DNA from: a virus
IMG/VR virus record: IMGVR_UViG_3300032893_000677
Span: 1-21,597 of that record
Length of the DNA stretch: 21,597 nt
Reading direction: 5' to 3' (one strand)
The notes below the pieces were generated by a model. That model saw nothing but the letters and a program-made list of their open reading frames with translations, was not told the origin of the DNA and made no database searches. The position numbers and the translations under genes are program-made. Positions 1,679-18,083 of the stretch are shown piece by piece; within the stretch, counting starts at the first letter, position 1, and each line of letters starts with the position of its first letter.

Positions 1679-1687
1679 TTTAGTGTA
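1679..1687 (-). promoter_or_regulatory. TACACTAAA promoter box before the lysis genes
   Basis: The minus strand reads TACACTAAA, then CGAGGAAAAGCGAA, then the endolysin ATG. TACACT can act as a -10 hexamer. A -35-like CTGACA lies 15 bases upstream of it (1703-1708). The same nonamer, with C or T at the third base, stands before three other blocks in this window. The box lies in the 32-base gap after the tail fibre gene. Here a Shine-Dalgarno site (GAGGA) also falls between box and start, so the mRNA may have a short leader. The promoter role is inferred. Confidence 0.5.
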
Positions 1688-1696
1688 GCACGTTAT

Positions 1697-2698
1697 TTAG
1701 ATTGTCAGAATCCAAATTTGCACAGACCCACCCATGCTCGTCAAAGTGCTCCCGATACGCTGCGTTGCGTACACGTTCAGGGCGGTTGTACTCGATTGTG
1801 CGGCTGGCATCTGGATAGTGCCGTATACTGAGGATACATTTGCAGTATTGGTAATCGTGCATTGAACGAATGTGCCGCCCAAGTTCGACATGCCGACCGG
1901 AAGCGCCGCGCCTGTGACTAATTCATACTCGGCACCACTCGCCCAGCTAGCCACACTCCAGCCCCAGGCGCGAGCGTAGAGTACGAAAGACCCGAAGGTA
2001 TATATTGTCCAGCCGTTGGCGTCCGTAGTCGGAGTCGCAAAGGTATTGGAACTGTCGAAGGTCTTGTTTTTAACCGTAGCTGTCGCATTATTGAGCATCA
2101 CCGTGTCGTCGGCTACATTTGGCACTACATGGCCAGACGTGTTGCTGGAACCGCCCCAGATCCTAGCGTAGGTAGCAAACGGCGGCCTGGCGTCGGCTAT
2201 GTAGGCCGTCACGATCTGCGTGGCATTCTGCGGCACAGTCACCTGGGCAAGCCATATCCAAGGCACGCCAGCTCCCAGCGCGGCCTGTATAGCCGAACTG
2301 TTCGGAGCGACAGGGCTGCTTGCGGGCGTTCCCTGCACGTCCATGAAGGCCAGGGAGCCAGGGTTATTACTGTTCGTCGAACTGACCGCCGACATGTTTA
2401 TGTAGGCAACTACGGCGTCGATGCGGGGATTGAGCGCACTTGCCGTTCCGATAGCTAAGTTGCTTGGGGCGTCTTGCCAGCCGTTGTATCCAAACGTACC
2501 AAGTGAGTTCGGGAGTAAAGCCGAACCGATCGAGATGTCCACGGACATATTTGCACCAGCCGCGTGCTGGACAACCTGTAAGCTCGTCGGCTGATAGATA
2601 CTGGGCACCCCTTGGTTGCCGAGGAGCATCGAGATTGCCTTGTAAAAACCCTCGGCGGACGTTTTCCCGTTGTCTATGATGGCGCTATAGGTACTCAC
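1697..2698 (-). CDS. Tail fibre / receptor-binding-like protein
   Basis: 333 residues, placed between the tail-tip genes and the lysis genes, where siphophages keep receptor-binding proteins. The N-terminal half resembles baseplate-attached fibre proteins: a GANMSVDISIGSALL segment, then NPRIDAVVAYINMS, and WLAQVTVPQNATQIVTAYIADAR, a pattern common at the base of siphophage fibres. The C-terminal half (about 185-333) is rich in Thr, Ser and Gly, with aromatic beta strands (WTIYTFGSFVLYARAWGWS) and a final QIWILTI, as in a beta-sandwich tip. It would bind the host surface. The start is GTG, with no Shine-Dalgarno site; the frame is open only six codons further upstream. A nine-codon ORF (MRILPREYL, 2686-2715) overlaps the start in another frame. 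Confidence 0.65.
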   Translation of the reverse strand: MSTYSAIIDNGKTSAEGFYKAISMLLGNQGVPSIYQPTSLQVVQHAAGANMSVDISIGSALLPNSLGTFGYNGWQDAPSNLAIGTASALNPRIDAVVAYINMSAVSSTNSNNPGSLAFMDVQGTPASSPVAPNSSAIQAALGAGVPWIWLAQVTVPQNATQIVTAYIADARPPFATYARIWGGSSNTSGHVVPNVADDTVMLNNATATVKNKTFDSSNTFATPTTDANGWTIYTFGSFVLYARAWGWSVASWASGAEYELVTGAALPVGMSNLGGTFVQCTITNTANVSSVYGTIQMPAAQSSTTALNVYATQRIGSTLTSMGGSVQIWILTI

Positions 2699-2743
2699 GA
2701 GGAAGAATCCGCATTGTTACTTAATCGTTTCGACGTGAACATA

Positions 2744-2772
2744 ATCTTATTACTCAGTTTATCATATCGCAA
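2744..2772 (-). promoter_or_regulatory. Possible sigma70-like promoter for the tail fibre gene
   Basis: On the minus strand TTGCGA (2767-2772) is followed after 17 bases by TAAGAT (2744-2749). Each hexamer matches four of six consensus bases. Transcription would start near 2737 and leave a leader of about 39 bases before the GTG at 2698. This gene lacks the TAYACTAAA box seen before the other blocks. The call is weak, since AT-rich sequence gives such matches by chance. Confidence 0.3.
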
Positions 2773-2797
2773 TTGGGCCTTAAAGAGGGCATACGCC

Positions 2798-2828
2798 TTG
2801 ACAGCAAGTACTAATAGTAGTATATATT
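2798..2828 (+). promoter_or_regulatory. Strong sigma70-like promoter for the lone plus-strand gene
   Basis: A perfect -35 hexamer TTGACA (2798-2803) is followed after 17 bases by TATATA (2821-2826), or after 19 bases by TATATT (2823-2828). Transcription should start at about 2832-2836, that is at or next to the ATG at 2835. No Shine-Dalgarno site lies between promoter and start, so the mRNA is probably leaderless. The promoter faces against the late genes around it. Confidence 0.7.
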
Positions 2829-2834
2829 ATATCG

Positions 2835-3482
2835 ATGAAGCTACCGAAATTAGATTTCAAAATAGGTGTTGCGACTATCGCCGTGACTTTTTTAGGCGGT
2901 GTCGCCGTGGCTGCGACGCCATCATCTCAGCCACCGCATGAGTTACATCTGACTTCCGACACAAGCCAACCGGCAGCGAGTCAGACACCCCAGAGCGCCC
3001 CTTCGGCAAGCCCGACCGACGCACAGCAAAGCAGCGGGACGCACGACCAGGCGAGCAGCTCGGCCAGCCCATCGATCGCATCGTCTACTGTCACTGCGCC
3101 GCACGCTGCCACGCATGACAACACGACAGGCACTACAGCCGCCTCTACAGACTCGACCAGTACAACCGACCAAACTCAAACCCAAGACGACCCTGCGCCG
3201 CCTGTGACCGCCGTGAGCGCAACCATGTCCGATTGGACAGATCCGGTTCCCTACACGCCAAGCCCATTCAGGGAGATCAATACGGTAACTGGTCAGGCCA
3301 CAGTCTTTCCAGCCACCGTCTCATACGAATATTGCACCTACACCTACAGCGACGGTTCGACGCAACAAGTCCTGGCTGGCACTAGCTATGCACAGGCACC
3401 GGGTTCCAGCGACACAGAGTCGATGACGGCGGGAAACATTGGTGCGGCCTGCACGCTCGCTAATGCGCCAGCCGCTAACTAG
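2835..3482 (+). CDS. Secreted Ser/Thr/Pro-rich protein, moron-like; function unknown
   Basis: 215 residues and the only gene on the plus strand. The N-terminus is a Sec signal peptide: basic MKLPKLDFK, a hydrophobic core IGVATIAVTFLGGVAVA, and a likely signal peptidase I site after AVA (about residue 26). There is no lipobox Cys. Residues about 28-125 are low-complexity Ser/Thr/Ala/Pro/Gln/Asp, like a wall-spanning or O-glycosylated stalk. Residues about 125-215 look folded, with aromatic beta strands (YEYCTYTYSDG) and two Cys (YEYCTY, GAACTL) that could form a disulphide. It has its own promoter and no ribosome-binding site. Such isolated genes in phage late regions (morons) often alter the host surface, for example to exclude other phages; that role is inference here. 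No homologue is recognised. Confidence 0.7.
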   Translation: MKLPKLDFKIGVATIAVTFLGGVAVAATPSSQPPHELHLTSDTSQPAASQTPQSAPSASPTDAQQSSGTHDQASSSASPSIASSTVTAPHAATHDNTTGTTAASTDSTSTTDQTQTQDDPAPPVTAVSATMSDWTDPVPYTPSPFREINTVTGQATVFPATVSYEYCTYTYSDGSTQQVLAGTSYAQAPGSSDTESMTAGNIGAACTLANAPAAN

Positions 3483-3739
3483 CCACTCTTGGTACTTACC
3501 GTGCTCGAATTCCTGGAGGTGGCGATGACCCGACCTGTACCCTCACTGAATGCCAGGTTATGCGTAGGTGTCTTCTTTAGCAGTTCGACAAATTCTTCGT
3601 GACTGATGTCCAGCCTTGTGCGCCTAACAACATCGGTAGTTCGTCCGACAGTTACGCCGACGCTGGGTCCACGTTTAATTAGCGAACTCGTGCCATCTTT
3701 CAACTCAACCAGTTCAAATATAAATTCTTTGTCGGTCAT
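3479..3739 (-). CDS. Small hypothetical protein at the end of the tail-tip block
   Basis: 86 residues from the ATG at 3739, which overlaps the preceding stop as TGATG; a GTG one codon earlier is also possible. It starts MTDKEFIFELVELKDGTSSL, a short beta-rich domain, followed by LDISHEEFVELLKKTPT, which looks like one helix. There is no signal peptide or membrane segment. Coupling to the upstream gene suggests it is made with the tail-tip proteins and may be a minor tail or assembly protein, but no family is recognised. Its TAG stop shares the palindrome CTAG (3479-3482) with the stop of the converging plus-strand gene. Confidence 0.6.
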   Translation of the reverse strand: MTDKEFIFELVELKDGTSSLIKRGPSVGVTVGRTTDVVRRTRLDISHEEFVELLKKTPTHNLAFSEGTGRVIATSRNSSTVSTKSG

Positions 3740-4248
3740 CACGTTTGATTCAAGTTTGGCAAGTATGCCTTAAAGAATAGGTAGTAGGTATGCACGGAAG
3801 TGTCGTTGTTAATAAGCCAAAACTTCCAGACGCGCCCATTGGTCGAATCTGACGAATTAGCCCAGTCGGCATTGTGATGAAGTTGAAAGTTGAGTTGTCC
3901 AGGCGTCAGAAAAGAAGTGTCCTGAGATAGCGGCCACTGATGTTGGGCATCAGGAATACCCCCGCTAGAAAAAGAAGTTGGATCGATATAGAGCGTCCAA
4001 AACAAGTTCCACAAGGTAAGAGTATTACTGTCGGGCTGTAGACTGACCAGGAATGGGTATTCCCCTCCCCCCGAGCTCAGGCTAATGGAAACCGAGTAGA
4101 CACTACCGGCAGTCGGAAGACTCTGCACTTGTAAAACATCAGCCCCGATCTTCTGCGGTGTCTTTAGCTCGCGGATGTTGCGGGACTGCGTCTTGATTGT
4201 ATTTATCAAACGCCGCTCGGGACGGAGAGTAATTTTATTCAAACTCAT
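3739..4248 (-). CDS. Hypothetical tail-tip protein, beta-rich
   Basis: 169 residues. It opens with a basic segment (MSLNKITLRPERRLINTIKT), then becomes a beta-rich fold with many aromatics (TLWNLFWTLYIDPTSF, GRVWKFWLINNDTSVHTYYL) and ends near FFKAYLPNLNQT. The start lies one base after the stop of the tail-tip gene before it (TAG-C-ATG), and its own stop overlaps the next start. No strong Shine-Dalgarno site is seen, so translation is probably coupled. The compact jelly-roll-like composition suggests a minor tail-tip or receptor-binding accessory protein. No family is recognised. Confidence 0.6.
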   Translation of the reverse strand: MSLNKITLRPERRLINTIKTQSRNIRELKTPQKIGADVLQVQSLPTAGSVYSVSISLSSGGGEYPFLVSLQPDSNTLTLWNLFWTLYIDPTSFSSGGIPDAQHQWPLSQDTSFLTPGQLNFQLHHNADWANSSDSTNGRVWKFWLINNDTSVHTYYLFFKAYLPNLNQT

Positions 4249-4249
4249 G

Positions 4250-5416
4250 CTAATTCAAGCTCGTCGTAATTGTTACCTGCTCGAAGTCGTTATCGTCGAT
4301 CTGCACCTTGACTTGCTCCACGCGGTACATACCATTTATATCATTATACAATGGATGGTTACGCACGCGCACGTGTACCCAGTCACCCATGCTAAAGTCC
4401 GTGATATACGGCGGCTTGCTGCCATCAATTATTATACTCGGCAACACTAACGGCGACTGGTAAAGTGCTAAGTTCCAGTTGGCATAGTCCTGAAGCGAGC
4501 TATCGCCAACGTCGAGCGAGCTGGGGCTGACGTATTGCTGTCGGACTCCGTAAGCTTGCATTGAGGCAGCAGCCGGTGTGCCCGTGACGGGGTTCGGTGC
4601 GGTCCATATATTCTGTGCGGTCGTACCATTGCCAGAACCCTGCGCAATAATTTGGTTGAAAACTTGCGTGCCGTCCTCGATGGCGTCAACCTCAATGATA
4701 TTACCGGGATACTCGAACAATATGTCCGGTCGCTGACTGCCGAGTATGGTGTAGGTATTGAAGCGGTTGAGGTAGTCGAACTTGAAGTCGAAACTGCCAG
4801 CGTTGGTGTTGGCGAAGTCGGTCAGGGCGTCAGACAGCGCCATGTTGTTGTAGACCCGATCATGATTGCCGACCGTGGCGAGCGAACCCTGAGTTATCCC
4901 TAGATTCCAATACGAAGTCGGCACCAGGCCACCGGAGTACTTGCCCGTCGTAGTATTGAGCGTGCCGGTCGTATCATTGCCGCCCGTCTGAAACGTGTTG
5001 ATTAAGTCCCAGGCGATAGCGGACGCATCTGTAGCCGTGTATGTCTGCCCTGGACCAGTAAACGCGGTTGTCAGTAAGTTGTAGAAACCGGCAGCCTTGA
5101 TCTGCAAAAGGTTACCGCTACTGTTCTCGGCGAGCGTCCCGTACTTGTAGTTGAGCTGGCCTGCCGCGAAATATTGTCCCAGGCGCTTGATGCGCACGTT
5201 GGTCTGGTTAGTGACGAAGATTGTCCGCGGATCAGTGTAAGTCTTGTGGCAATACTTCTCTATCTCATCGATATTCAGATACCACTCGATGTCATCGGCC
5301 GCATTACGCGTGACGGTGAAGCTTCTGTTGGCGGCTCGACCGCCTAACTCGGCCAGGACTTGGCCCGCGGGATTAGCTAGTTCAACTGAATACTTACTGG
5401 ATGGGTAGGCGCTCAC
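4250..5416 (-). CDS. Tail-tip / baseplate hub protein (ReqiPepy6 Gp37-like)
   Basis: 388 residues directly after the distal tail protein, the usual place of the tail-associated hub. The N-terminus has GRAANRSFTVTRNAADDIEW with a TNVRIKRLGQYFAAGQLN strand, typical of the first hub domain. The middle has SYWNLGITQGSLATVG and FANTNAGSFDFKFDYLNRF. The C-terminus (MGDWVHVRVRN, then INGMYRVEQVKVQIDD) matches the end of siphovirus Gp37-like tail proteins, where a beta domain closes the tube. No peptidase or lysozyme extension is present, so it is a short structural form. The GTG start has no Shine-Dalgarno site but lies nine bases after an extended -10 element, so the mRNA is probably leaderless. 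Confidence 0.7.
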   Translation of the reverse strand: MSAYPSSKYSVELANPAGQVLAELGGRAANRSFTVTRNAADDIEWYLNIDEIEKYCHKTYTDPRTIFVTNQTNVRIKRLGQYFAAGQLNYKYGTLAENSSGNLLQIKAAGFYNLLTTAFTGPGQTYTATDASAIAWDLINTFQTGGNDTTGTLNTTTGKYSGGLVPTSYWNLGITQGSLATVGNHDRVYNNMALSDALTDFANTNAGSFDFKFDYLNRFNTYTILGSQRPDILFEYPGNIIEVDAIEDGTQVFNQIIAQGSGNGTTAQNIWTAPNPVTGTPAAASMQAYGVRQQYVSPSSLDVGDSSLQDYANWNLALYQSPLVLPSIIIDGSKPPYITDFSMGDWVHVRVRNHPLYNDINGMYRVEQVKVQIDDNDFEQVTITTSLN

Positions 5417-5422
5417 GATGGC

Positions 5423-5434
5423 TTTAGTATATCA
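5423..5434 (-). promoter_or_regulatory. TATACTAAA promoter box with extended -10, before the tail-tip block
   Basis: The minus strand reads TGATATACTAAAGCCATC and then the GTG start. TGA-TATACT is an extended -10 element; no good -35 lies 16-18 bases upstream. Start of transcription at the usual distance would be near 5419, about three bases before the GTG. The box lies in the 64-base gap after the distal tail gene, one of the few true gaps in the tail region. Confidence 0.55.
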
Positions 5435-5480
5435 AAGCAACGGCGGCGACTGTAGCGCAGCCAACGCCCCGATCCCTGAA

Positions 5481-6350
5481 TTAGACGCCAGCGTAGGCCG
5501 GATACACCGATACGCTAACGTAGCCTCCGTCCCCTGAGTTACTTGTGCTCAGCTGAATCGTGTTCTGGCCCGGTAATATCGTCCACCAGAAGTTGTTCGT
5601 CGCGTCCATGGCGCTGATGAGATTCTGGCTGCCGTTCAGCACAACCGTCTTGTTGTACATGTCCACGACCACACTGCTGCCGCCAGGAATCGTGTAGTCC
5701 AGCTGGAAAGCGTAGCTGCTCGTCTGGTTCTGCACATATGGACTCGTCAGCGGGCCGGTGAATGTAATGATCGGATGGCTCTCAACGTTGCCGCTATTGG
5801 TTATGGTTGCCGAGCCGCCCGAACTGCCTGACCCGATGACGGGCACGACGCACGGCACCACGAAGCCGCCACCGATGAGCGTAGTAATACTGCCGATCGT
5901 CTGCTGACTCGTCCCGTAGATACGACCGTCTGGTGCAACTAAGCTCACCTGATACTTCGTCCATGTTAGGTAGGTGTCAGCAAAGACTGGCCTCTTGGGG
6001 ATGACGTTTACGAAGTAGCTGTTGCCGTCCATGGTTGTGAACTGTAGCTTGGTCGTTACTGGATAGCCGTTACTGTCCCGCTGTAGTAAACAAGCTGTGG
6101 ATAACGCCTGGCGTCGCTGTCGGTAGTCGGTCGGATTTTGGCCTTGTATCATTCCTTCAAGTGTGATAGTCCGGGCGTCGTAGAAATTAGCGCTGACGCG
6201 GGCGTAGTCCTGGCCGGGGATCGGGTACTGCACGATGCGGTAGTCAGGGGCATCAAGACCCTGGACGTTCGGACTCAGGGTAACGCCGTAGCCAGAGGTC
6301 GGAGCTGGACCGCAGATGAAAGCCAGAGTGCCGAGCGTCATATTCTCCAT
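5481..6350 (-). CDS. Distal tail protein (Dit-like)
   Basis: 289 residues, starting in a TGATG overlap with the tape measure stop. Distal tail proteins follow the tape measure gene in siphophages, form the ring at the tail tip and join the tube to the baseplate. The N-terminal part (YPIPGQDYARVSANFYDAR, ITLEGMIQGQNPTDYRQRRQ, LQFTTMDGNSYFVNVIPKRP, WTKYQVSLVAPDGRIYG) has the strand-and-helix pattern of this family: inner ring strands and a helix with RQRRQAL. The C-terminal part (about 180-289) is a beta sandwich (IITFTGPLTSPYVQN, ILPGQNTIQLS), which matches the galectin-like or carbohydrate-binding domain many of these proteins carry. A second ATG three codons in is possible but has poor spacing to any ribosome site. 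Confidence 0.75.
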   Translation of the reverse strand: MENMTLGTLAFICGPAPTSGYGVTLSPNVQGLDAPDYRIVQYPIPGQDYARVSANFYDARTITLEGMIQGQNPTDYRQRRQALSTACLLQRDSNGYPVTTKLQFTTMDGNSYFVNVIPKRPVFADTYLTWTKYQVSLVAPDGRIYGTSQQTIGSITTLIGGGFVVPCVVPVIGSGSSGGSATITNSGNVESHPIITFTGPLTSPYVQNQTSSYAFQLDYTIPGGSSVVVDMYNKTVVLNGSQNLISAMDATNNFWWTILPGQNTIQLSTSNSGDGGYVSVSVYPAYAGV

Positions 6351-9118: not shown

Positions 9119-9150
9119 ATTTTTTTATGTGAGCCTTTCCACTGCGTACA

Positions 9151-9713
9151 TTATGCCATGTTCGGCGGCTGTTGCATGCGCGCGGCCTTAATTTGGTCTT
9201 CAATTTCAATCATCTCAAGATAGGTATCGAGATGTTTACGCGGCACTTTCAGCAATTCCCAGTACGGCATGTTAATATCTTCGCGCCGAGCGATTTGCAA
9301 GAGCTTATATTCCAGCGGCGGCTCTACATCAATCTCTTTGCCGTCAGCCAGGTTATCGAGGTAGAGAATTAAGTTTTTTTTTCCGTAGTCGAGAGGCCGG
9401 TTTCCGGCTCATGCATCTTCTGCTGCGTTAGGTACTCGAAGTCAACCTTCGGCATCCGTAAAATAGCTTCAAACGAGACAGGAATGGGTGTGAGGTCTTC
9501 TTCCGTAAAGTTCCACTCGACAATACGCTTGCTCAGCCAGCGGGCGAAACGCACATAGCTGTTCGGGTCAAAGTCACTGTAGACAAGTGAATCTTCAACC
9601 CGAGCAGCGCTAAGGTCGATCTTGACCCAGGCTTGTTTGTCCTGCGGCAGACTTTTCGTCGATGGTAAGAATAGCTGCTTAATGTACGGCTCGTAGGTAG
9701 GTAGGACTGGCAT
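9151..9713 (-). CDS. Frameshifted tail assembly chaperone (gpGT-like), made by -1 slip at the A9 run
   Basis: Ribosomes that slip back one base at A-AAA-AAA (near 9375) leave the short chaperone frame just before its TAA and read 74 more codons to a TAA at 9153-9151, giving about 187 residues. The extension begins NLILYLDNLADGKEIDVEPP and contains LEYKLLQIARR, NMPYWELLKVPRK, YLEMIEIEDQIKAARM and ends QQPPNMA. It has no start codon near its beginning and fills the space between chaperone and tape measure genes. This is the arrangement of lambda G and GT, where the fused form recruits the tape measure protein and tail tube subunits. The open frame and slippery run are seen directly; the slip itself is inferred from the well-known family behaviour. 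Confidence 0.85.
9369..9713 (-). CDS. Tail assembly chaperone, short form (gpG-like)
   Basis: 114 residues from the ATG at 9713, which shares one base with the HNH gene stop (TAATG). An earlier in-frame ATG at 9737 lies inside the HNH gene and is less likely. It begins MPVLPTYEPYIKQLFLPSTK, has a middle FDPNSYVRFARWLSKRIVEW and ends HEPETGLSTTEKKT. Its position between tail tube and tape measure genes, its size, and the frameshift site at its end identify it as the chaperone that coats the tape measure during tail assembly and is absent from the finished virion. A GGAAGAAAG stretch upstream may help initiation, but coupling to the HNH gene is likely. Confidence 0.85.
   Translation of the reverse strand: MPVLPTYEPYIKQLFLPSTKSLPQDKQAWVKIDLSAARVEDSLVYSDFDPNSYVRFARWLSKRIVEWNFTEEDLTPIPVSFEAILRMPKVDFEYLTQQKMHEPETGLSTTEKKT
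9374..9382 (-). promoter_or_regulatory. Programmed -1 ribosomal frameshift site (A9 slippery run)
   Basis: The minus strand reads ACG GAA AAA AAA ACT TAA in the chaperone frame. The nine A residues contain the heptamer A-AAA-AAA in the correct phase, so both tRNA-Lys can re-pair one base back. The zero-frame stop follows two codons later, and the -1 frame is open to 9151. No obvious downstream hairpin or upstream Shine-Dalgarno stimulator was identified by eye. Confidence 0.85.
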
Positions 9714-10393
9714 TACGCTGGTACTTCTTTCTTCCATTTAACATCTCTAAAGTAATTCCACCCTATGAGCTTATGGCATGGTTTACAAAGTGTGCGGCCA
9801 TTGCTAATGACTAGACGAAGATCGGGATATAGACTGAAGGGTTTAACGTGGTCCACTTCAAGGCTACCCCCGCGCTGCCCACACTCCTGGCAAGTAAAGT
9901 TGTCCCGTTCAAATACAGCTTTGCGCCATCCCTTATACTCCTTGGATGTACGAATAAGGTGGTTGACCGAGCTAACGCCGCCCCTCCAATTATTATTGTT
10001 GTTGCGACTTTGGCTGGCGCTCATCTTTTTTCTTGTTTCAGGAGTACATATATATCGTACTCTGCCTTTATTAGCAGCTGATACTTTACGGCGCCACTCT
10101 TCATTGTGCACCTCGGCAGTGATCTTACGAACACCTACACCGATTTTCCGTCTGTGCTCTTCGCTGATTGGAACGCCCTTTTTTGTTCGGATGTTAAAAT
10201 CAGCGATGTTGGCCGAGCCTTCAGGAGATAAATTATTTTTCCTGCCCACCTGGGCCATGTTGCGACAGTCAAGGCCACAATACTTGTACTGACCACGCTT
10301 GAGATAGATTGGTGCAACTTCGAATCTCTTACCACAGTTCTGACAAGCGGTTTCCTGTAAGTTGCTATATCTGGTAGCTGCCTTAGCGATCAT
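9713..10393 (-). CDS. HNH endonuclease with NUMOD3-like motifs (free-standing homing type)
   Basis: 226 residues. An N-terminal zinc ribbon (CQNCGKRF, then KYCGLDCRN) is followed by two NUMOD3-like DNA-binding motifs (GVPISEEHRRKIGVGVRK and TPETRKKMSASQS). A C-terminal HNH nuclease domain has CQECG, LEVDHVKPFSLYPDLR, NGRTLCKPCHK: the DH pair, the Asn and the Cys pairs for structural zinc are all present, so it should be active. Such genes cut DNA lacking them and spread by repair; they are not virion parts. It overlaps the tail tube gene (ATGA) and the chaperone gene (TAATG), so it splits the usual tube-chaperone pair without changing either frame. Confidence 0.88.
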   Translation of the reverse strand: MIAKAATRYSNLQETACQNCGKRFEVAPIYLKRGQYKYCGLDCRNMAQVGRKNNLSPEGSANIADFNIRTKKGVPISEEHRRKIGVGVRKITAEVHNEEWRRKVSAANKGRVRYICTPETRKKMSASQSRNNNNNWRGGVSSVNHLIRTSKEYKGWRKAVFERDNFTCQECGQRGGSLEVDHVKPFSLYPDLRLVISNGRTLCKPCHKLIGWNYFRDVKWKKEVPA

Positions 10394-11784
10394 GCGATTG
10401 AGCTTGTACCATTTATTACCGAAACTGAAAACATCTGCGAGTCTCCCGTGTCGTATTGCGTGGAGTATTTAATATCGGAATAGTTGACCGCCTTACTCTT
10501 TATGTTCGGCGTTGGGTTTGGCGTGACAAGGTGGTTGATGGTGATTCGCATCTCATATTGGTTGCTGGACCCAGCGAAGTGCCTCACGACACAAGCCGTC
10601 TTCGTCAAATCAGTGAAGTTGATCGTGTCATCAGGTGTATCGAAAAAGTGCTTGACATCTAAGTTGGCCTTGCCAAGCATACGGACAAGTGACGCCGGGT
10701 CGGCGCTACCGGAGCGCTGTGAGCCGCTGTCACTCTCGAAGCCGTAGTCCAGCTCCCATGTGCTGCCTTGCTCCAGCCGAGTCTGCGTAGCGGACAACGC
10801 GGCGCTGGCGGTTGCACCAAAGCAGAACTGCGTGTTGCTCCACAGGAACGGGTTCAGTAGCGAGAAGCTGACTGTCTGCGGTCGCAAGTACATAAAGCCG
10901 CCAGAGCTAAAGCTGCTGACGTTCGTGGTCGTCGTTATCGTGTTGCCGTTCGTAATGCTGGCAACCGTAGCGTCAACCGTGGCGCTACCGGATTTGTAGA
11001 AACGAATCAGGTCGCCTACTACAAGCTTGCCGGTCAAGTTCGGGTCGTAAGTGCTGTCGAGCACAACCGTGTACGGGCCTGAGCCGCTGACGCTCGTAAC
11101 GTTCGCGCCTTCAAAACTGCCGAGCGCGCTCACGCTGCACTTCAACATGAGTTGGTTCTTACTCTGGCTCATGGCGATCTTAGAACACTGCACCCCGACA
11201 AAGCGCTTCACGACGTTGCCGGTCGAGATGTCCACAGTTTTGCTATTCGGGATCGTGGACGAGCTAAGCGTGAATGGCCAAGTGTCGGTGGTGTTAGTGG
11301 CAGCCGAGAAGGTGATTGTCGAGTCGCCCGTACCTGACGCCTTGGTCAGAGTGCCAGAAGTAGCTGGCGCACCTGAGCTAGTCATAAGGAGCGTGGTAGC
11401 TGATGAGATAGTAGCGACGACCGTGAACGTCACGCTGTTATTGGTGTAGGTTGCGCCGACGGTGGCGTTGGCGCTGCTAACAGTGAAGGTATAAGCCTGT
11501 GTTACTGTCCCGCGTGTCAGAAACATATCAAAGACTTCAGCCGCGGTGTTCGGCTCAGCCACCATACTTATGTCGCCCTTGTGGTCACGAAGACCTGGCA
11601 AGACTTGAAACGTCTGGGCCGGGTTGCCGAAGATCGGCTCCTGGTCTTCGAGGTTATAGTTGGTGTTCAAACTTTCTTCATCGATCAAAGTAAAAACGGT
11701 CGGTGTCACTGCCGTACCAGGGGTTGATTCAGTTACTAAAGCCACATAACCTAAGTTACCAACCCATTCGCCGTGGTTTGCCAT
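10390..11784 (-). CDS. Major tail tube protein, enlarged
   Basis: 464 residues. The start (GYVALVTESTPGTAVTPTVFTL), the NTNYNLEDQEPIFGNPAQT segment and LRDHKGDISMVAEPNTAAEV are typical of siphophage tube proteins, which stack as hexamer rings around the DNA channel. Core strands return near RFVGVQCSKIAMSQ and at the C-terminus (WELDYGFESDSGSQRSG, TACVVRHFAGSSNQYEMRIT). Most such proteins have 150-300 residues; here two Thr/Ser/Gly-rich stretches (about 100-165 and 230-305) seem inserted. The first (ATVGATYTNNSVTFTVVATI, then APATSGTLTKASGTGDSTIT) looks like a separate surface domain. The start overlaps the preceding stop as TAATG and has an AAGGAG site. Confidence 0.82.
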   Translation of the reverse strand: MANHGEWVGNLGYVALVTESTPGTAVTPTVFTLIDEESLNTNYNLEDQEPIFGNPAQTFQVLPGLRDHKGDISMVAEPNTAAEVFDMFLTRGTVTQAYTFTVSSANATVGATYTNNSVTFTVVATISSATTLLMTSSGAPATSGTLTKASGTGDSTITFSAATNTTDTWPFTLSSSTIPNSKTVDISTGNVVKRFVGVQCSKIAMSQSKNQLMLKCSVSALGSFEGANVTSVSGSGPYTVVLDSTYDPNLTGKLVVGDLIRFYKSGSATVDATVASITNGNTITTTTNVSSFSSGGFMYLRPQTVSFSLLNPFLWSNTQFCFGATASAALSATQTRLEQGSTWELDYGFESDSGSQRSGSADPASLVRMLGKANLDVKHFFDTPDDTINFTDLTKTACVVRHFAGSSNQYEMRITINHLVTPNPTPNIKSKAVNYSDIKYSTQYDTGDSQMFSVSVINGTSSIA

Positions 11785-12059
11785 TACTCATTCTCCTTGT
11801 TTGCTGGTTGTTCGTTTTGGGGCGGCGTAGTGGATGGATTATTTGGAGCCGGTGGCGTGGCCGCTTGAACGGGCGCGGGGATCGAGGCAGCTGGCGCAGC
11901 AGGGGCAGTTTGTTGCGGCGGTGGAGTTTGCTCGTCCACCCTCACCAAGTTGGCGCTCTCCAGGTTTTCCGGGCCTTCGATCTTGCCATTGACAATGTCG
12001 CCGACACCAGGCACAAAGCCCGTCTTCGTCCCATCTTTTGTTTTGTATAGCGCGCACAT
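11784..12059 (-). CDS. Small protein with Pro/Ala-rich tail, before the tail tube gene
   Basis: 91 residues. The first 45 or so form a small beta-type domain (MCALYKTKDGTKTGFVPGVG, DIVNGKIEGPENLESANLVRV). The rest is low-complexity Pro/Ala/Gln/Thr (DEQTPPPQQTAPAAPAAS) and likely disordered. A strong GGAGG site lies seven bases before the ATG. The same plan, small domain plus Pro/Ala/Gln tail, occurs in two proteins of the capsid region. It lies between tail terminator and tube genes and may be a minor structural or assembly protein. No family is recognised with confidence. Confidence 0.65.
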   Translation of the reverse strand: MCALYKTKDGTKTGFVPGVGDIVNGKIEGPENLESANLVRVDEQTPPPQQTAPAAPAASIPAPVQAATPPAPNNPSTTPPQNEQPANKENE

Positions 12060-12099
12060 AGTTTTCCTCCATTCTGATTTATTGCGTATTCTTTGTCAA

Positions 12100-12618
12100 T
12101 CACGAGCGTCCTTGTACGACCACACGCCGCTGTGTGCTTAACCTAGTCAGCGCATAAGCAACGTTTGTGATGTCGTCTTGTAAACGCCCGACGTCATAGC
12201 TTGTCTGCACGCTACTATCGATAAGCCAGATCGCACCGCTCGACTGTAAGAGCGTCAGGTAGTGCCTGAGCATGTAGTACAGCGTGTCGGCCTTATAGTC
12301 GAGCGACGTAGGGTCTTGACCCTGGACAAACATCTCTAGCTCGCGCTTGGCATCAGTGCGCGGATTTTCACCGCCTACTGAGTCGGCGAGGCTTCGCAGC
12401 ACGCTTATGTCTATGACCTCGGTAACTTCATCAGTCTGCGTCGGGCCAAGCACGGCTCCGTCGGTCTTGCGGTCAATAATCAGACAGGGCATTTCTTCTT
12501 TCACTGGCGGCGTGAGGGGGAAAGCCGGATAGACCGTATAGACGTCCCCAAACTGGCCCTGTAATAGCTCGTAGAGCCGCTGGACAGTGTCTTTGGCGTA
12601 GAGTTGGTGGTTGTCCAT
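12100..12618 (-). CDS. Probable tail terminator protein
   Basis: 172 residues, starting in a TGATG overlap with the tail completion gene. It begins MDNHQLYAKDTVQRLYELLQ, has a conserved-looking VYPAFPLTPPVKEEMPCLII strand pair and a later ADTLYYMLRHYLTLLQSSGA helix. Terminator proteins (lambda gpU type) cap the tube once its length is set; they are small alpha/beta proteins with an N-terminal helix and are encoded just before the tube protein, as here. The call rests mainly on gene order, size and fold type, since the sequence family is not recognised. Confidence 0.6.
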   Translation of the reverse strand: MDNHQLYAKDTVQRLYELLQGQFGDVYTVYPAFPLTPPVKEEMPCLIIDRKTDGAVLGPTQTDEVTEVIDISVLRSLADSVGGENPRTDAKRELEMFVQGQDPTSLDYKADTLYYMLRHYLTLLQSSGAIWLIDSSVQTSYDVGRLQDDITNVAYALTRLSTQRRVVVQGRS

Positions 12619-13094
12619 CAGACACTTGTCCCCGCTATCTTTGCGCGGATGTCCGCTTCCATGACCGACTTAATCATCGCCTCGACGGTCGAATTGACGC
12701 CGATCATTTGGCGAGCAGGGATATTGTGCCCACGACCTCTACCCTCCGAGGTGCCAAGCTGATGGTAGGGAAAATATGGTACGGAGTTAGATACCAAGAG
12801 CGTGTCGGGGGTTACATTGCTATAGAAACCCTGCTGCATCGCGCCGGTACGTACCAGCATCCCGCGTCCACGCCAGTCACGATCTTTTTCGGCTTGGGTC
12901 GACGCTGCTAGCGGCGTCCAACGCTTGCCAAGTGCCGAGCCTTCCGATATAAACACACTCTGGCTATAGAAGATAATCAACTGCTTGCCGAGCGTTGTCA
13001 GCGCGCTCGTGAAATCGTGCAAACTCGCACCAAGTTGCGTTAGACGTTCCTGTGCCTTATCAAGTCCCGTGACGTTGATTTGAATACTGAGCAT
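12618..13094 (-). CDS. Tail completion / virion morphogenesis protein (Mu gpG / HK97 gp10-like)
   Basis: 158 residues from the ATG at 13094, which shares a base with the adaptor stop (TGATG); a TTG one codon earlier is an alternative. The N-terminal part (INVTGLDKAQERLTQLGASL) is a helix-rich start. WTPLAASTQAEKD, RTGAMQQGFYSN, FPYHQLGTSEGRGRGHNIPA and RQMIGV follow the pattern of phage virion morphogenesis proteins, in which a (F/Y)xxxHQxG motif is followed by IPAR and a hydrophobic strand. These proteins sit at the head-tail junction and finish tail assembly. The next gene starts in another TGATG overlap. Confidence 0.8.
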   Translation of the reverse strand: MLSIQINVTGLDKAQERLTQLGASLHDFTSALTTLGKQLIIFYSQSVFISEGSALGKRWTPLAASTQAEKDRDWRGRGMLVRTGAMQQGFYSNVTPDTLLVSNSVPYFPYHQLGTSEGRGRGHNIPARQMIGVNSTVEAMIKSVMEADIRAKIAGTSV

Positions 13095-14098
13095 CAAAAC
13101 ACCTCGTCAATCGTGGCCTGGAAGCCGTAGTCGTTGCCTGCTGGCGGTGTAGCGACGTTCGGGTTGCCGTAGACGTTCTGGGCAAGCTCGGTCGTCTCGT
13201 CTGGCCAGCCAGCGACGCCCTGGCCTTCTTCAGTCACCAGCTCGTTGTAGTTGGCGTCTTCGAGTACTACCGAGCGGTCGCGCAGCTCGTCGAGCGAGGT
13301 GTGCGAGCCTCCGCCATGCCGGGCCATGTCTGCCTTGGCCTCACCCTCGGCCGCCATCGCAGGATTGACTTCTAAGTACTCCTCGTGCATCAGCTCGCCC
13401 GCAGCGATGTTTAGGGCTATCTGCTGGACGATCGGGTTCGTCGGCTGGGGCAGTGGAAACTGATACAGCGCCGTCAGGGCACCGTTGATCTCACGCTCGG
13501 CAGCATCGCGCTTCTCAGCAATGATGTCATCAGTGACTTTCAGGTTTGTTCGGAAGCCAGCCGCACGTCGAATCTGGTCAAGGCTGACGTAGTGGACGGC
13601 ACCGGCCTGGACGGCAACGCTGTCACTCAGGAGCGTTTCGCCGGTCGAGGTCGAGTCGTAGTACGTGAACTTGTACCACTGGCCAGCCGTGCCACTCGCG
13701 TCGGTGTAGGCAGTAAATGGCCTATTGGCCGTGATAGTGACGGTCGAGATCTTATTGAAGTTGGCGTCTGGCGGTTGCGTGCCGTTACCGGCTACATCGT
13801 TGGCTCGGTAGACGTTGATCTGGTTGCCGAATAATAGCGTGACGGGATCGTTGAAGTTGTGTTGCAGCAGCGTCCCGCTCGATGTAGTGATGCTTGTTGA
13901 AGTTGGCGCTGCACTGGCTATCAGCATCTCCGATGTGCTACTGCCGAGTGCGCCGATAATAATGTAACCGCTTGACATGCCGGAACTGTTGTTGACGGGC
14001 AACGTGGTCACGCTAGTACTGGTCAGATCGGAACTCAGCTGTGTCTGAGCAACGATATTGTTTGAATCGAAGTTGTCGATGTCAATAGTTTGGGACAT
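13094..14098 (-). CDS. Head-tail adaptor (Gp36/DUF1320-like) with extra N-terminal beta domains
   Basis: 334 residues. The C-terminal part (about 165-290) looks like a head-tail connector of the Mu gp36 type: SLDQIRRAAGFRTNLKVTDD, IIAEKRDAAEREINGALTAL, YQFPLPQPTNPIVQQIALN and IAAGELMHEEY give the bundle of helices that contacts the portal. In front are two beta domains. Residues about 20-95 (SSGYIIIGALGSSTSEMLIA) and about 95-165 (INVYRAND, AYTDASGTAGQWYKFTYYDS) look like small sandwiches, the second fibronectin-III-like. Usual adaptors have only 100-150 residues. The ATG has no Shine-Dalgarno site and lies eight bases after TATACT, so the mRNA is probably leaderless. It begins the connector-tail block. 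Confidence 0.72.
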   Translation of the reverse strand: MSQTIDIDNFDSNNIVAQTQLSSDLTSTSVTTLPVNNSSGMSSGYIIIGALGSSTSEMLIASAAPTSTSITTSSGTLLQHNFNDPVTLLFGNQINVYRANDVAGNGTQPPDANFNKISTVTITANRPFTAYTDASGTAGQWYKFTYYDSTSTGETLLSDSVAVQAGAVHYVSLDQIRRAAGFRTNLKVTDDIIAEKRDAAEREINGALTALYQFPLPQPTNPIVQQIALNIAAGELMHEEYLEVNPAMAAEGEAKADMARHGGGSHTSLDELRDRSVVLEDANYNELVTEEGQGVAGWPDETTELAQNVYGNPNVATPPAGNDYGFQATIDEVF

Positions 14099-14103
14099 TT
14101 GGT

Positions 14104-14112
14104 TTTAGTATA
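14104..14112 (-). promoter_or_regulatory. TATACTAAA promoter box before the connector-tail block
   Basis: The minus strand reads TATACTAAAACCAA and then the adaptor ATG at 14098. TATACT serves as the -10 (14107-14112); transcription would start near 14100, two bases before the ATG. No TTGACA-like -35 is found at 16-18 bases; ATGACA lies 22 bases upstream. The box spans most of the 16-base gap between the repeat protein stop and the adaptor start. Confidence 0.55.
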
Positions 14113-14114
14113 GC

Positions 14115-15542
14115 CTATTTTAAGTGGATCGTACTGTCATCCTGCTTGCCGTGTAGTGTTTCAGGATTGCTCTTGACATGAATTTCGGTCGGCCTGCTTC
14201 CCAATGTCGGCCTGCTCTGGTCGGAGCGGATATGCAGGATGTCTTGCGTGAGATGTAGGAAGATAGGCTTAGTAGGAGTCGGCACGCTGTTGCGGTAGCT
14301 ATTCGTGAGCACACTGGCGAAGCTCAGGGCACCCCTCAGTACTTTGTTTACTTGCCGACTAAATGTGCCGCTTGGGCTGACCGACGCCGAAGGTAGGCTC
14401 TTATTGACTTGCTTAGTCTGGGTGCCGCTGAAGCCAACACCAGCTAGCAGCCGCTTGAAGGTACTTCTTGGTAGGGTGCCTGCAAAGCTAATTCCGGCGG
14501 CTAGACTCTTGAAGATCGAGCGCGTTAAGTTTGCACTTGGCAAGATAGTAGCCGAGAAGACTTTATCGACAAGCCTCGTGAGCGAGCCGTCTGGCGATAC
14601 CGCGGCCGACAGGTTCTTGTACGCCGTCTTACTGAAATTTCCGCTTGGGCTGACGCTGGCTGAAGCGAAGGTCTTGTCGGTCTGTCTGACCAGGGCGCCA
14701 GTCTCGGTAAGGTTAGCGGTCAGATTTTTTCGTACCTGTCTGCTCTGCGAACCACTGAAGGATAATGATGCGCTGGTCAGAAGCTTGTTGACTTGCTTGG
14801 CTACGGTGGCCGTGAAATTTATTGTCGCCGTTAATGGCGCTTTGGCGATGGACTTGATGAAACTGCCTGTGAACGTAACACCGGCAGATAGAGTCCTAGA
14901 GATTCCCCGGCTCTCACTACCCACGAACGTTACAGTACCGCTTAGGTTCTTATTAACCTGCTTTGATTCGCTGCCCGTAAAGCTCAAACTGCCGGTCACG
15001 CTGCGGATGTAGGCTTTGCCGCTCGTAAGCAAGCCGCTGAAGCTCAGCGACGTCGCTGTCAGTATCTTGTTGATAGACTTGGTTAGTGAACCGCTCGGCG
15101 TCTCACTGGCGACTATAGTCTTGGTGATAGCCCGACTCTCATTACCCGTAAAGGTTAAGCTGCCGGTGAGCAACTTATAGATGTTCTTAGGGCTTAGGAG
15201 ACCGGCGAACGAAACAGTAGCGCTAAGTAGCTTCGCCACAGATTTATTAACGCTGCCGCTGAATGTTACTGAGGCTGCCGTTAGTTGCTTGTTGTCTGAG
15301 CGGTTGAGTATGCCCGTGAAAGATAGCGACGCCACGACGAACTTCTGAATCGCCTTCGAAACCGAACCGCTGAACGTGAGAGATGCTTGGAAGTTCGTGT
15401 CGGCCAAACTTATGGCCTTGGCCTGCGCCCCAGTGAAAGATAAACTGCCTGATAAACTCTGCGTGTGAAGTACCCCCCCAGCGGCAGGCGGAGCTTGCGA
15501 GACGATCGCGCGACTCGGAAACGATCGTCCAAGGCGAGCCAT
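14115..15542 (-). CDS. Basic repeat protein, about 21 copies of an 18-19 residue unit
   Basis: 475 residues. After a 29-residue start, residues about 30-418 are tandem units of consensus ASLSFSGSxSKxVNKxLT, with the aromatic (or Pro) and Gly most constant. Alternating polar and hydrophobic residues suggest one beta hairpin or solenoid turn per unit. Lys/Arg recur twice per unit while acidic residues are rare, so the repeat part is strongly basic. The last 57 residues differ (FLHLTQDILHIRSDQ, RPTEIHVKSNPETLH) and may be an anchoring domain. The start shares a base with the preceding stop (TGATG). Its place among capsid-associated proteins suggests a virion surface or capsid-decorating fibre; binding of an acidic polymer is possible but unproven. 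No named family is claimed. Confidence 0.7.
   Translation of the reverse strand: MARLGRSFPSRAIVSQAPPAAGGVLHTQSLSGSLSFTGAQAKAISLADTNFQASLTFSGSVSKAIQKFVVASLSFTGILNRSDNKQLTAASVTFSGSVNKSVAKLLSATVSFAGLLSPKNIYKLLTGSLTFTGNESRAITKTIVASETPSGSLTKSINKILTATSLSFSGLLTSGKAYIRSVTGSLSFTGSESKQVNKNLSGTVTFVGSESRGISRTLSAGVTFTGSFIKSIAKAPLTATINFTATVAKQVNKLLTSASLSFSGSQSRQVRKNLTANLTETGALVRQTDKTFASASVSPSGNFSKTAYKNLSAAVSPDGSLTRLVDKVFSATILPSANLTRSIFKSLAAGISFAGTLPRSTFKRLLAGVGFSGTQTKQVNKSLPSASVSPSGTFSRQVNKVLRGALSFASVLTNSYRNSVPTPTKPIFLHLTQDILHIRSDQSRPTLGSRPTEIHVKSNPETLHGKQDDSTIHLK
14289..15455 (-). repeat. Tandem protein-coding repeats, unit 54-57 bases, about 21 copies
   Basis: The repeat part of the basic repeat protein. 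Units are clear at protein level but strongly diverged in DNA, so this is an old array kept by selection and not a recent microsatellite-like expansion. There are no unique spacers between identical repeats, so it is not a CRISPR array. The phase of the units keeps the opposite strand open over long stretches, which makes antisense ORFs that should not be called genes. Confidence 0.75.
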
Positions 15543-16750
15543 CAGTAGTTACCCGCCCGATTGACAGCCTGGCTTATGGTCACTGCATTGGCGACTGGTC
15601 CAGCGGAAGCCACCGAGAGCAGCATGCTGTTATAGGCGTGTAAGCCGGTAGGCGTGCTCGTCGCGGTCGCCGCAAAGTCAATTAGGTCATCGTCGTTGAC
15701 GACAACATTCTGTCCGGTGAGGTTATTTGCCCGTCCCGACGAGCCATCATTCGGCGAAGGCGAGGCGTCGTTAATGGTATCGGTAGCTGTTGTATTACCG
15801 GCGTTCTGTCTGACGGTGAAGGCATACGCCTTTGGCGACACGCCTGGCGACACACTCGTCTGAGAATAGATACCAAGTATAGTGGATGCCTGTAACATGA
15901 ACTGAACGGCTGTTTCGGTCGAGTTCCAGCTAGCGGTACCAGGACCAATACCTTCATAATATTGTGTTCCGCTGGTTGGAGTGTTGCCGCCACTAACATG
16001 CCCAATGAAACTCTGGCCGTCGGTTGTCGGCGCGAAGCTAATACCCCAACTGCTAGCCCTACCCGTACCGGAGTTGGCAATGGAGACTCTATCTCCAGCT
16101 ACTACCGTGAAGGTATGAGTCGTGTCGTTCGCCGTCGTGCCGCTCATACTGCCGGTGGTCATTGTCTGGGCTGAGCCGTTTTTATAAACAGTGAAATTGG
16201 CGCCCGATGCGCTGGATACGACGTATAGGTTTTCGATTGTCCCGCCAGTCGGAACGATAATGCCGGCGTCCCCCGTCGCAAGCGTTGTAGTATTATAGCC
16301 CATGACAGAGAATTGGCCTGTGAGGGTCGTGTTAGCTGTTCCGAGTATGGCGGTCAAGCCGGTCGCGGTTTGGCGGCCGGTCCAATACAGCGTTCCAGGC
16401 AACGTAGCGCTGGAACTCGGCGTTATCTGGAGCGTGATGAGATCCCCAGCAGAAAACGCAACGCTATCAGTCAAGTCCTGCGCCGCCTTATTAGTACCGG
16501 ATATGGTCGTGGTAAGGGCGGTTGTCGAGCCGTTCTTTAAGACAGTGAAGACGATGTTATTGCCCGAACCTGGAGCGGTACCAACTTTGACCCTCAAGCG
16601 ATCGAGAGTTATAGCATGTGGTAGCGGCTGCTCGAAGCCTGAGTTTACGGCATTTGACCAGTTGTTCGCGGAGTTGTAAACGAAGGGAAGGTAGTTATTG
16701 CTACCAGCCGTTCCGGTGCCGGTATTGACACCGACCAGAAACGACTTCAT
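15542..16750 (-). CDS. Large beta-rich virion protein with three diverged domains
   Basis: 402 residues rich in Thr, Ser, Gly and Asn. Three tandem segments resemble each other: about 45-130 (LDRLRVKVGTAPGSGNNIVF, FTVLKNGSTTALT, FSAGDLITLQI), about 160-240 (NLYVVSSASGANFTVYKNGS, HTFTVVAGDRVSIANSG) and about 295-385 (AYAFTVRQNAGNT, VVVNDDDLIDF). Each has a FTVxxN(G/A) strand pair followed by a (A/V)GDxI(T/S)(L/I)-type strand, as in small jelly-roll domains of phage surface proteins. It starts two bases after the preceding stop, with a GAGGT site, and ends in a TGATG overlap. The likely role is capsid decoration or a capsid fibre; the exact function is unknown. Confidence 0.62.
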   Translation of the reverse strand: MKSFLVGVNTGTGTAGSNNYLPFVYNSANNWSNAVNSGFEQPLPHAITLDRLRVKVGTAPGSGNNIVFTVLKNGSTTALTTTISGTNKAAQDLTDSVAFSAGDLITLQITPSSSATLPGTLYWTGRQTATGLTAILGTANTTLTGQFSVMGYNTTTLATGDAGIIVPTGGTIENLYVVSSASGANFTVYKNGSAQTMTTGSMSGTTANDTTHTFTVVAGDRVSIANSGTGRASSWGISFAPTTDGQSFIGHVSGGNTPTSGTQYYEGIGPGTASWNSTETAVQFMLQASTILGIYSQTSVSPGVSPKAYAFTVRQNAGNTTATDTINDASPSPNDGSSGRANNLTGQNVVVNDDDLIDFAATATSTPTGLHAYNSMLLSVASAGPVANAVTISQAVNRAGNY

Positions 16751-16751
16751 C

Positions 16752-17285
16752 CTAGACCTCGATTATTACATAGCAATACATGTTCACGCTCGCGCCAAAC
16801 GTGACACGTATCCGCAGACAGTTACCTGGCTTTAGTTCAGGCTCACGTCCGAGCGGGAACTGTTTGACATACTGGTTGGTCGGGGCAATGAGCTGGCTGT
16901 CGAACTCTCTCGTCGCAGTTATTGATCCCTCGGTGCCGGAAGCTGTGGCAAAGCCCGTGAGGGCAGTGCCGAGGTTGAAGGGCACGCCCGAGCTACCGGA
17001 AGTGTTCGCTGGCGCATTGGGATCGTTCCAGGGGATGATGTCGCCGACAGCCGAGGCCGTCGATACAGTGGCAAATACAGTGCCGGTTTCGACAAGCTCA
17101 ATCTCTCCTGGTGTGGCTGCGGCGCTGCCATCGAATGAACAGCCCCACTCGACTACTCTCGCCGCTGGAAACGTGCTCGACAGGGCAACCTGTAACATGG
17201 TGCGAATAGCAGTGCCGGTCGGCTGCTTCACTGGCGCGGCAGTGGTGGTGCCTGTTGTGTTTTGGATTAGGTAGAGTTGTGCCAC
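16752..17285 (-). CDS. Hypothetical capsid-associated protein
   Basis: 177 residues from a GTG at 17285, beginning MAQLYLIQNTTGTTTAAPVK. The sequence is beta-rich and suggests one compact domain: TMLQVALSSTFPAARVVEWG, GEIELVETGTVFATV, then EFDSQLIAPTNQYVKQFPLG and CLRIRVTFGASVNMYCYVII at the end. No signal peptide or membrane segment is seen. The GTG has no Shine-Dalgarno site; a perfect TATAAT lies 25 bases upstream, after the HNH gene. It heads a group with the three-domain protein and the basic repeat protein, so all three are probably made together and may form one surface structure. No family is recognised. Confidence 0.6.
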   Translation of the reverse strand: MAQLYLIQNTTGTTTAAPVKQPTGTAIRTMLQVALSSTFPAARVVEWGCSFDGSAAATPGEIELVETGTVFATVSTASAVGDIIPWNDPNAPANTSGSSGVPFNLGTALTGFATASGTEGSITATREFDSQLIAPTNQYVKQFPLGREPELKPGNCLRIRVTFGASVNMYCYVIIEV

Positions 17286-17310
17286 GCAAATAAGTCTTGT
17301 TTATGCTGGA

Positions 17311-17316
17311 ATTATA
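17311..17316 (-). promoter_or_regulatory. Possible -10 element (TATAAT) after the zinc-ribbon HNH gene
   Basis: A perfect TATAAT lies on the minus strand 25 bases before the GTG at 17285. No -35 match is found 17 bases upstream (TAGCGT). It could restart transcription for the three surface-protein genes after the inserted HNH gene. A lone hexamer is weak evidence. Confidence 0.35.
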
Positions 17317-17323
17317 AACCAAA

Positions 17324-17346
17324 GGCGCGGGTGACGCTATAGCGCC
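17324..17346 (-). terminator. Weak terminator-like hairpin at the HNH stop codon
   Basis: GGCGC (17342-17346, minus strand) pairs with GCGCC (17324-17328) across a 13-base loop that holds the HNH stop codon TAG. TTTGGTTT follows. The stem is only five pairs and the T run is broken by GG, so this is at best a leaky terminator. Confidence 0.2.
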
Positions 17347-18047
17347 GCAAACACAATATTGTGTGAACCGCAGTCTCCGCAGATAGCTTGGGCGCCCCTC
17401 CCATGACGGCCGGAGCGTAACTGTAAGTTTTCGATACGGTTATCAGTCTTGTTGTTATTGATGTGGTGGACTGTTTCGTGGCGTTCTAGTTTGCGACCGA
17501 AGTGCTTCGCCATAACCACGCGATGCTCAAAAGCCTGACCCGATGGACGGTCCGAGTATTCTGGTGCATAGATCAGTACGTAACCTTGGGCTGTAAGGTA
17601 CTTGCTGTCATCACTCTTATGTAAGTAGCACGGACGACTGCAATATATTTGGCCAGCCTTCTTCTTCGGATGAAATGTCTTGCCACAAGTTTTGCAGTTA
17701 CGGTCACCGAAGGTGCGGGGTCGGCCAGGAGTACACTTAATCGAACAGTACTTTTGTGAGTTACGCCAGGGGCTATATGTTGTCCCACAGGCCAGACATT
17801 GCTTGGGTGGCGTGCTTTTATACCGAACTTTAGAGCACTCCTTAGAGCAGTACTTTTGTTTATCGTAGCGCGTATGAAAGAGTTTGCCACAGTTAGGGCA
17901 GTTTATGTCAGGTCTCCTGAGCGGTCTGCCAGGTCTACACTTTAACGAGCAGTACTTGGAGTATCTGTCCGGTGGCCTATATATCTTACCGCATGTATCA
18001 CAATGTCTATCCACTAAAACTCTAGGTCTACCAACTTTACTTGTCAT
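17337..18047 (-). CDS. HNH homing endonuclease with four zinc ribbons
   Basis: 236 residues. Four treble-clef or ribbon-like units of form CxxCG(K/T)xxxP...KYCSxxC occupy residues 1-150 (CDTCGKIYRPPDRYSKYC, CPNCGKLFHTRYDKQKYC, CLACGTTYSPWRNSQKYC, CKTCGKTFHPKKKAGQIYC). GRP-containing linkers (VGRPRVLVD, PGRPLRRPD, PGRPRTFGD) precede units one, two and four. The nuclease domain follows: FEHRVVMAKHFGRKLERHET, VHHINNNKTDNRIENLQL, with the HH pair and the Asn of HNH_3-type enzymes. A last CGDCG lies near the end. It should cut a specific DNA site and spread by homing. It has its own promoter and interrupts the run of capsid-associated genes. Confidence 0.87.
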   Translation of the reverse strand: MTSKVGRPRVLVDRHCDTCGKIYRPPDRYSKYCSLKCRPGRPLRRPDINCPNCGKLFHTRYDKQKYCSKECSKVRYKSTPPKQCLACGTTYSPWRNSQKYCSIKCTPGRPRTFGDRNCKTCGKTFHPKKKAGQIYCSRPCYLHKSDDSKYLTAQGYVLIYAPEYSDRPSGQAFEHRVVMAKHFGRKLERHETVHHINNNKTDNRIENLQLRSGRHGRGAQAICGDCGSHNIVFAAL

Positions 18048-18051
18048 ACAC

Positions 18052-18083
18052 TTTAGTGTATTCTATTCGTTGGCATAAATCAA
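18052..18083 (-). promoter_or_regulatory. Promoter of the zinc-ribbon HNH gene, with TACACTAAA box
   Basis: On the minus strand TTGATT (18078-18083), a 17-base spacer, then TACACT (18055-18060) followed by AAAGTGT and the ATG at 18047. This is the best -35/-10 pair among the four TAYACTAAA boxes. Transcription should start about one base before the ATG, so the mRNA is leaderless; no Shine-Dalgarno site exists. The box lies in the 54-base gap after the capsid-associated gene upstream. Confidence 0.6.

Follow-up and report, generated by a model that had tools for sequence, protein, structure and literature searches.

The four copies of the nonamer TAYACTAAA found in the window, a 21.6-kb IMG/VR fragment (21,597 nt) carrying a siphophage structural module, are very probably the -10 elements (TATACT or TACACT) of promoters that lie in the direction of transcription and head blocks of genes. 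The reading that we favour, with a probability of roughly 0.6, is that each TAYACTAAA is a sigma-70-family -10 element starting short-leader or leaderless messages at the block heads, the primary sigma factor of the host being its simplest reader; the boxes are thus most likely ordinary bacterial-type -10 promoters and no new kind of signal. The sequence features behind this reading are the enrichment, position and spacing of the boxes, the absence of Shine-Dalgarno sequences, conserved -10-like sites at orthologous block heads and an extended -10 element distributed clade-wide. Comparisons were made with seven related viral contigs (G001-G007) obtained by protein searches, with major capsid proteins 59-72% identical where present; all records, the window included, are fragments, and a simple ORF rule was used to place the gene starts. 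Searches for further relatives with the tape-measure, Dit, connector, tail-tip and endolysin-like proteins retrieved none that were new.

Scanning of both strands with the exact motif yielded four copies, all on the minus strand (1679-1687, 5423-5431, 14104-14112 and 18052-18060) and all in gaps between minus-strand genes, and none elsewhere; an earlier note on this DNA had given the same coordinates, 7-17 bases before genes, and had seen no other copy. The expectation from dinucleotide shuffles was 0.22 copies, close to the 0.3 of that note, and four copies were reached in none of 100 shuffles. Since the motif had been picked after looking at the sequence, its choice was corrected for by admitting any nonamer with at most one two-fold position in the 13 gaps (605 nt). 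TAYACTAAA was the best-shared nonamer, present in four gaps; no other nonamer was common to four, and this number was reached in none of 500 shuffles. The same test at k=8 was matched by 2 of 500 shuffles, and the TAYACT hexamer by itself was not significant (104 of 500). The enrichment of the nonamer in the window is real.

The end of TAYACT lies 17, 9, 8 and 7 nt before the start codons of genes 117-1664, 4250-5416, 13094-14098 and 17337-18047, respectively (Table 1). In the first case the start codon is ATG, with CGAGGAAAA between and a GAGG-like leader, while boxes 2 (GTG), 3 (ATG) and 4 (ATG) precede genes without a Shine-Dalgarno sequence, which was found in most window genes following a gap. 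TGN was absent from boxes 3 and 4, and a conventional -35 at the usual spacing was seen only for box 4, so that box 3 has neither. The boxes were absent from the output of a conventional -35/-10 promoter scan, which itself performed no better than on shuffles. Rfam and tRNA scans of the sequence gave no matches.

Table 1. Promoter-like elements and associated genes in the window
Feature	Position	Strand	Basis
Box 1: TGC TACACT AAA, extended -10	1679..1690	-	exact motif, TGn, G004 ortholog
Endolysin-like gene, box 1 at head, 515 aa	117..1664	-	residues 179-259 match Listeria phage endolysins
Box 2: TGA TATACT AAA, extended -10	5423..5434	-	exact motif, TGN
Tail-tip / prophage endopeptidase-like tail gene, box 2 at head	4250..5416	-	phrog_1885, PF06605
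Box 3: TATACT AAA, -10	14104..14112	-	exact motif, G004 ortholog site
Head-tail connector gene, box 3 at head	13094..14098	-	phrog_195, Phage_Mu_Gp36
Box 4: TACACT AAA, -10	18052..18060	-	exact motif, position
TTGATT, candidate -35 of box 4, 17 nt spacer	18078..18083	-	sequence
Free-standing HNH endonuclease gene, box 4 at head	17337..18047	-	PF13392
TATAAT before gene 16752-17285	17311..17316	-	sequence
TATGATAAACT, putative extended -10 (TRTGN + TAAACT), upstream of gene 1697-2698	2756..2766	-	sequence
TTGACA-17-TATATA, putative promoter of gene 2835-3482	2798..2826	+	sequence; -10 ends 8 nt before ATG
TTGACA-17-CAGAAT, promoter-like site before gene 11784-12059	12071..12099	-	G004 counterpart TTGACA-17-CAAAAT

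The structural genes of the window comprise a truncated major capsid gene (phrog_1005) and the connector, tail completion, tape measure, Dit and tail-tip genes, followed by the 515-aa endolysin-like gene. The boxes do stand at block heads as the earlier note had proposed, but its HNH block is a single gene, because the gene that follows, 16752-17285, is preceded by a TATAAT of its own, and the lysis block of the note is represented by one weak endolysin match covering only the middle part of the 117-1664 product (ortholog in G004 40% identical). Gene 16752-17285 is without a Shine-Dalgarno sequence and its G001 ortholog has one instead of the TATAAT; this contrast downstream of the HNH gene would suit an insertion of the HNH gene together with its own promoter, a parallel for which, an intron homing endonuclease with its own promoter, is reported in Kayvirus (PMC7698491).

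Several further features of gene organization were recorded. Gene 2835-3482 is the sole clear plus-strand gene of the window and encodes a Ser/Thr-rich, secreted-looking product; the corresponding position in G003 is occupied by an opposite-strand gene (oriented 35676-36245). A 475-aa protein with degenerate repeats (SLSFTGS...) is encoded by 14115-15542 (-), which separates the head genes from the connector gene; the G004 gene in this position specifies a protein of some 1194 aa whose repeats are similar. NUMOD3 and HNH domains mark a second HNH gene, 9713-10393 (-), flanked by the large gene 10390-11784 and the chaperone gene; the orthologs of these two flanking genes adjoin each other in G003 and G004. 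A programmed frameshift likely joins the two tail-assembly chaperone frames at a nine-A run (GGAAAAAAAAACTTAA; 9369-9384, minus strand) at the end of 9369-9737, after which an extension ORF without its own start (9152-9368) stays open before the tape measure gene.

Comparison with the relatives led us to reject the nonamer as a clade-wide motif, its exact form being absent from G001, G002, G003 and G005-G007. Of the two exact copies in G004, one falls at the end of a tail gene, where it is read in frame as Tyr-Thr-Lys, and the second stands before a gene outside the structural module, within TTTGATATACTAAA, a 14-mer identical to box 2. Since all relatives but G004 lack it, what is conserved in the clade is not the exact nonamer. 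The recurrent unit is the extended -10 element TGNTANNNT: 19 copies were found 6-23 nt before the 170 starts of the eight contigs, where about 3.6 were expected, and 17 of the 19 lie outside the window. These were distributed as 9 (6-11 nt), 5 (12-17 nt) and 5 (18-23 nt) against 1.2 expected in each bin, with 0-2 per bin beyond 30 nt. Within the window the exact nonamer occurs only at block heads, whereas TGNTANNNT precedes both structural and non-structural genes in the clade. A de novo search for shared k-mers in the relatives gave none that were significant.

A -10-like element is kept in the related phage G004 at three block heads. At the connector start, GCTATACTAAAAC of the window and GCTATAATAAAAC of G004 are identical at 12 of 13 positions (1 of 200 shuffles), the hexamers being TATACT and TATAAT, respectively; TAAGAT, TGTAAT and TATGAT were found at the connector starts of G002, G003 and G005, though the single-ortholog -10 tests for the connector were not significant one by one against shuffles (p 0.09-0.56). 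The endolysin-like start is preceded by TGCTACACT in the window and by TGATAAACT in G004; the gene before it carries TATGATAAACT in the window and TATGGTAAAAT in G004, and this 11-mer TATGATAAACT recurs before the endolysin-like start of G004. In the G004 gene positionally equivalent to the tail-tip gene, TACACTAAA lies 24 nt upstream of the start and also reads in frame as Tyr-Thr-Lys. All four relatives having a portal gene carry a TGN -10 before it (TGATAGACT, TGCTACGAT, TGCTATGAT and TGCGACAAT), although these sites were individually not significant in gene-by-gene shuffle tests.

Only 4 of the 22 structural starts of G004 have TANNNTAAA within 34 nt, and all three equivalents of boxed genes are among them (hypergeometric 0.0026). 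Of the 11 TANNNTAAA sites, 10 have T at -17 and 7 have G at -14, a pattern that would fit the TRTGN extended -10, and TTGACA-like -35 sequences at 16-18 nt were not above chance (P 0.27). Occurrences of TA...TAAA numbered 5 in the window (0.48 expected), 7 in G004 (2.9 expected) and 0 in the upstream segments of G001-G003. With -10 weights set to textbook frequencies, -10-like hexamers at 6-9 nt were found for 14 of the starts without Shine-Dalgarno in the eight contigs against 6.0 expected (1 of 400 shuffles), and for 10 against 4.5 when the window was omitted (3 of 400), while at Shine-Dalgarno starts they were depleted (3 against 7.9 expected). Taken with their transcription direction and their place at block heads, the -10-like elements kept at three heads in a related phage support the proposal of the earlier note that the boxes are phage promoters. 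On the contrary, its view that the conserved part runs past the -10 into ACTAAA found no support, the extension seen in the clade being upstream (TGN), nor did late specificity, because TGNTANNNT, and once the exact 14-mer of box 2, precede genes outside the structural module of the relatives.

From these features we infer the transcription starts, the sigma factor used, the timing and leaderless translation. TAYACTAAA would consist of a -10 element, TATACT or TACACT, followed by an A-rich discriminator. Recognition would proceed through the -10 with no general -35, aided by TGN at boxes 1 and 2 and by TTGATT at box 4. As the boxes lie almost on top of the genes, transcription would begin no more than a few bases ahead of the first start codon of the block, with a leader of about 0-11 nt, so that boxes 2, 3 and 4 would give leaderless or near-leaderless messages and box 1 a short leader with a weak Shine-Dalgarno sequence. 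In the simplest case the reader would be the host RNA polymerase with its primary sigma factor (sigma-A). Short-leader promoters of the -10 or extended -10 type would explain the position of the boxes, the missing Shine-Dalgarno and -35 sequences, the TGN of boxes 1 and 2 and the exchange of TATACT for TATAAT. A generic sigma-A -10 does not fully explain the YACTAAA common to the four sites, including the AAA and the C of TAYACT; C is uncommon at the fifth -10 position. The unexplained AAA and C, and the excess of TA...TAAA in the window and G004, leave room for a lineage-specific factor.

Such a factor could be a phage sigma-type protein reading the boxes as long -10 promoters without a -35, which we consider a distinct minority possibility, kept at that level by the Kayvirus late promoters, where a phage sigma uses a long -10 (TGTTATATTA) without a -35 (PMC7698491). 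The entire nonamer is common to the four block heads, the TANNNTAAA sites of G004 fall at the equivalents of three boxed genes, and G003 encodes a 253-aa sigma-70-family protein. The gene for the latter (L018:16032-16793, plus strand) lies on the strand opposite to the structural genes, beside a C5-cytosine methylase; its product scored 44.7 bits with TIGR02937 (cut-off 42.9) and matched phrog_351 at 4e-7, nearly all fold matches listed were sigma factors or sigma-containing complexes, albeit from a low-confidence model (mean pLDDT 46), and distant matches were found in Microbacterium phage AvGardian and one gut phage. However, G003 itself is without TANNNTAAA in its upstream segments, two of the G004 TANNNTAAA sites are part of an extended -10 read one step further (TATGATAAACT and TATGGTAAAAT), the exact 14-mer of box 2 also stands before a G004 gene outside the structural module, and neither the window nor the other relative contigs, which are partial, yielded a sigma gene. 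The phage-modified polymerase or alternative sigma factor suggested by the earlier note is not required, though a relative does encode a candidate. A more specific version, in which a G003-like phage sigma would read TAnnnTAAA, fixed here as TAYACTAAA, and start leaderless late messages at each structural block head, the spacing to the start codon having shrunk from 21-31 nt in G004 to 7-17 nt here, is somewhat less probable still. On the same G003 contig, the large terminase gene (L018:5071-7746, minus strand) has an intein-like insert of about 330 aa, which the 72% identical L005 terminase lacks.

A role in translation, as a non-Shine-Dalgarno initiation signal or an A-rich ribosome-binding leader, would accord with the lack of Shine-Dalgarno at three of the four boxed genes and with an A-rich part ending 4-6 nt before the start codon. 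It is improbable, since box 1 lies 17 nt away with the GAGG-like leader between, other window genes without Shine-Dalgarno have no box, and in G004 and G005 the -10-like element is further upstream with a Shine-Dalgarno sequence between it and the start. Least likely of all is that chance or a coding bias for Tyr-Thr-Lys/Asn yields the nonamer: most TAYACTAA copies of G003, G004 and G005 are indeed intragenic, many in frame as Tyr-Thr-Asn or Tyr-Thr-Lys, but all those of the window lie outside genes, and the shuffles allowing for motif choice largely refute this explanation.

Several known systems come close to the boxes. In TA-led leaderless genes of bacteria, TANNNT, resembling a -10 box, precedes the start codon by about 12 bp (Zheng et al. 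2011, PMC3160421), and mapped promoters of M. tuberculosis have TANNNT and no -35, with TGN in 7% (PMC3898074). Boxes 4, 3 and 2 have the first T of TANNNT at distances of 13, 14 and 15 nt from the start and likewise lack a Shine-Dalgarno sequence, while box 1 departs on both counts (23 nt, GAGG-like leader). The TA-led genes were, however, described in cellular genomes, whereas the boxes lie in a phage structural module and share a narrower sequence, YACTAAA. With extended -10 (TGN or TRTGN) sigma-A promoters, the TRTGN form of which was named for Kayvirus early promoters (PMC7698491), the clade shares TGNTANNNT enriched 6-23 nt before starts and a dispensable -35, but only boxes 1 and 2 have TGN, box 4 having a -35-like hexamer and box 3 neither. 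Kayvirus late promoters are alike in standing before structural and lysis genes with a long -10 and no -35; their consensus differs, their sigma gene has no equivalent in the 21.6-kb fragment, and similar sites of the relatives precede non-structural genes. T4 late promoters (TATAAATA, gp55; PMC1524935) also place a short -10-region motif without a -35 before late genes, but their sequence differs and they are read by gp55 with gp33 and gp45. A literature search for TATACTAAA as a promoter returned only an unrelated plant paper.

Proteins of the clade gave distant matches or none against 50,697 annotated phage records, and a search of genome contigs with the major capsid protein and terminase for prophages that would indicate a host found none. 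For this uncultured siphophage clade the boxes give candidate operon heads useful for reading phage gene control, and they suggest near-absent leaders and a reliance on the -10 alone in these phages. A box seen in a single genome needs to be read against its orthologs; here the conserved unit is the -10 with its TGN extension and not the whole nonamer.
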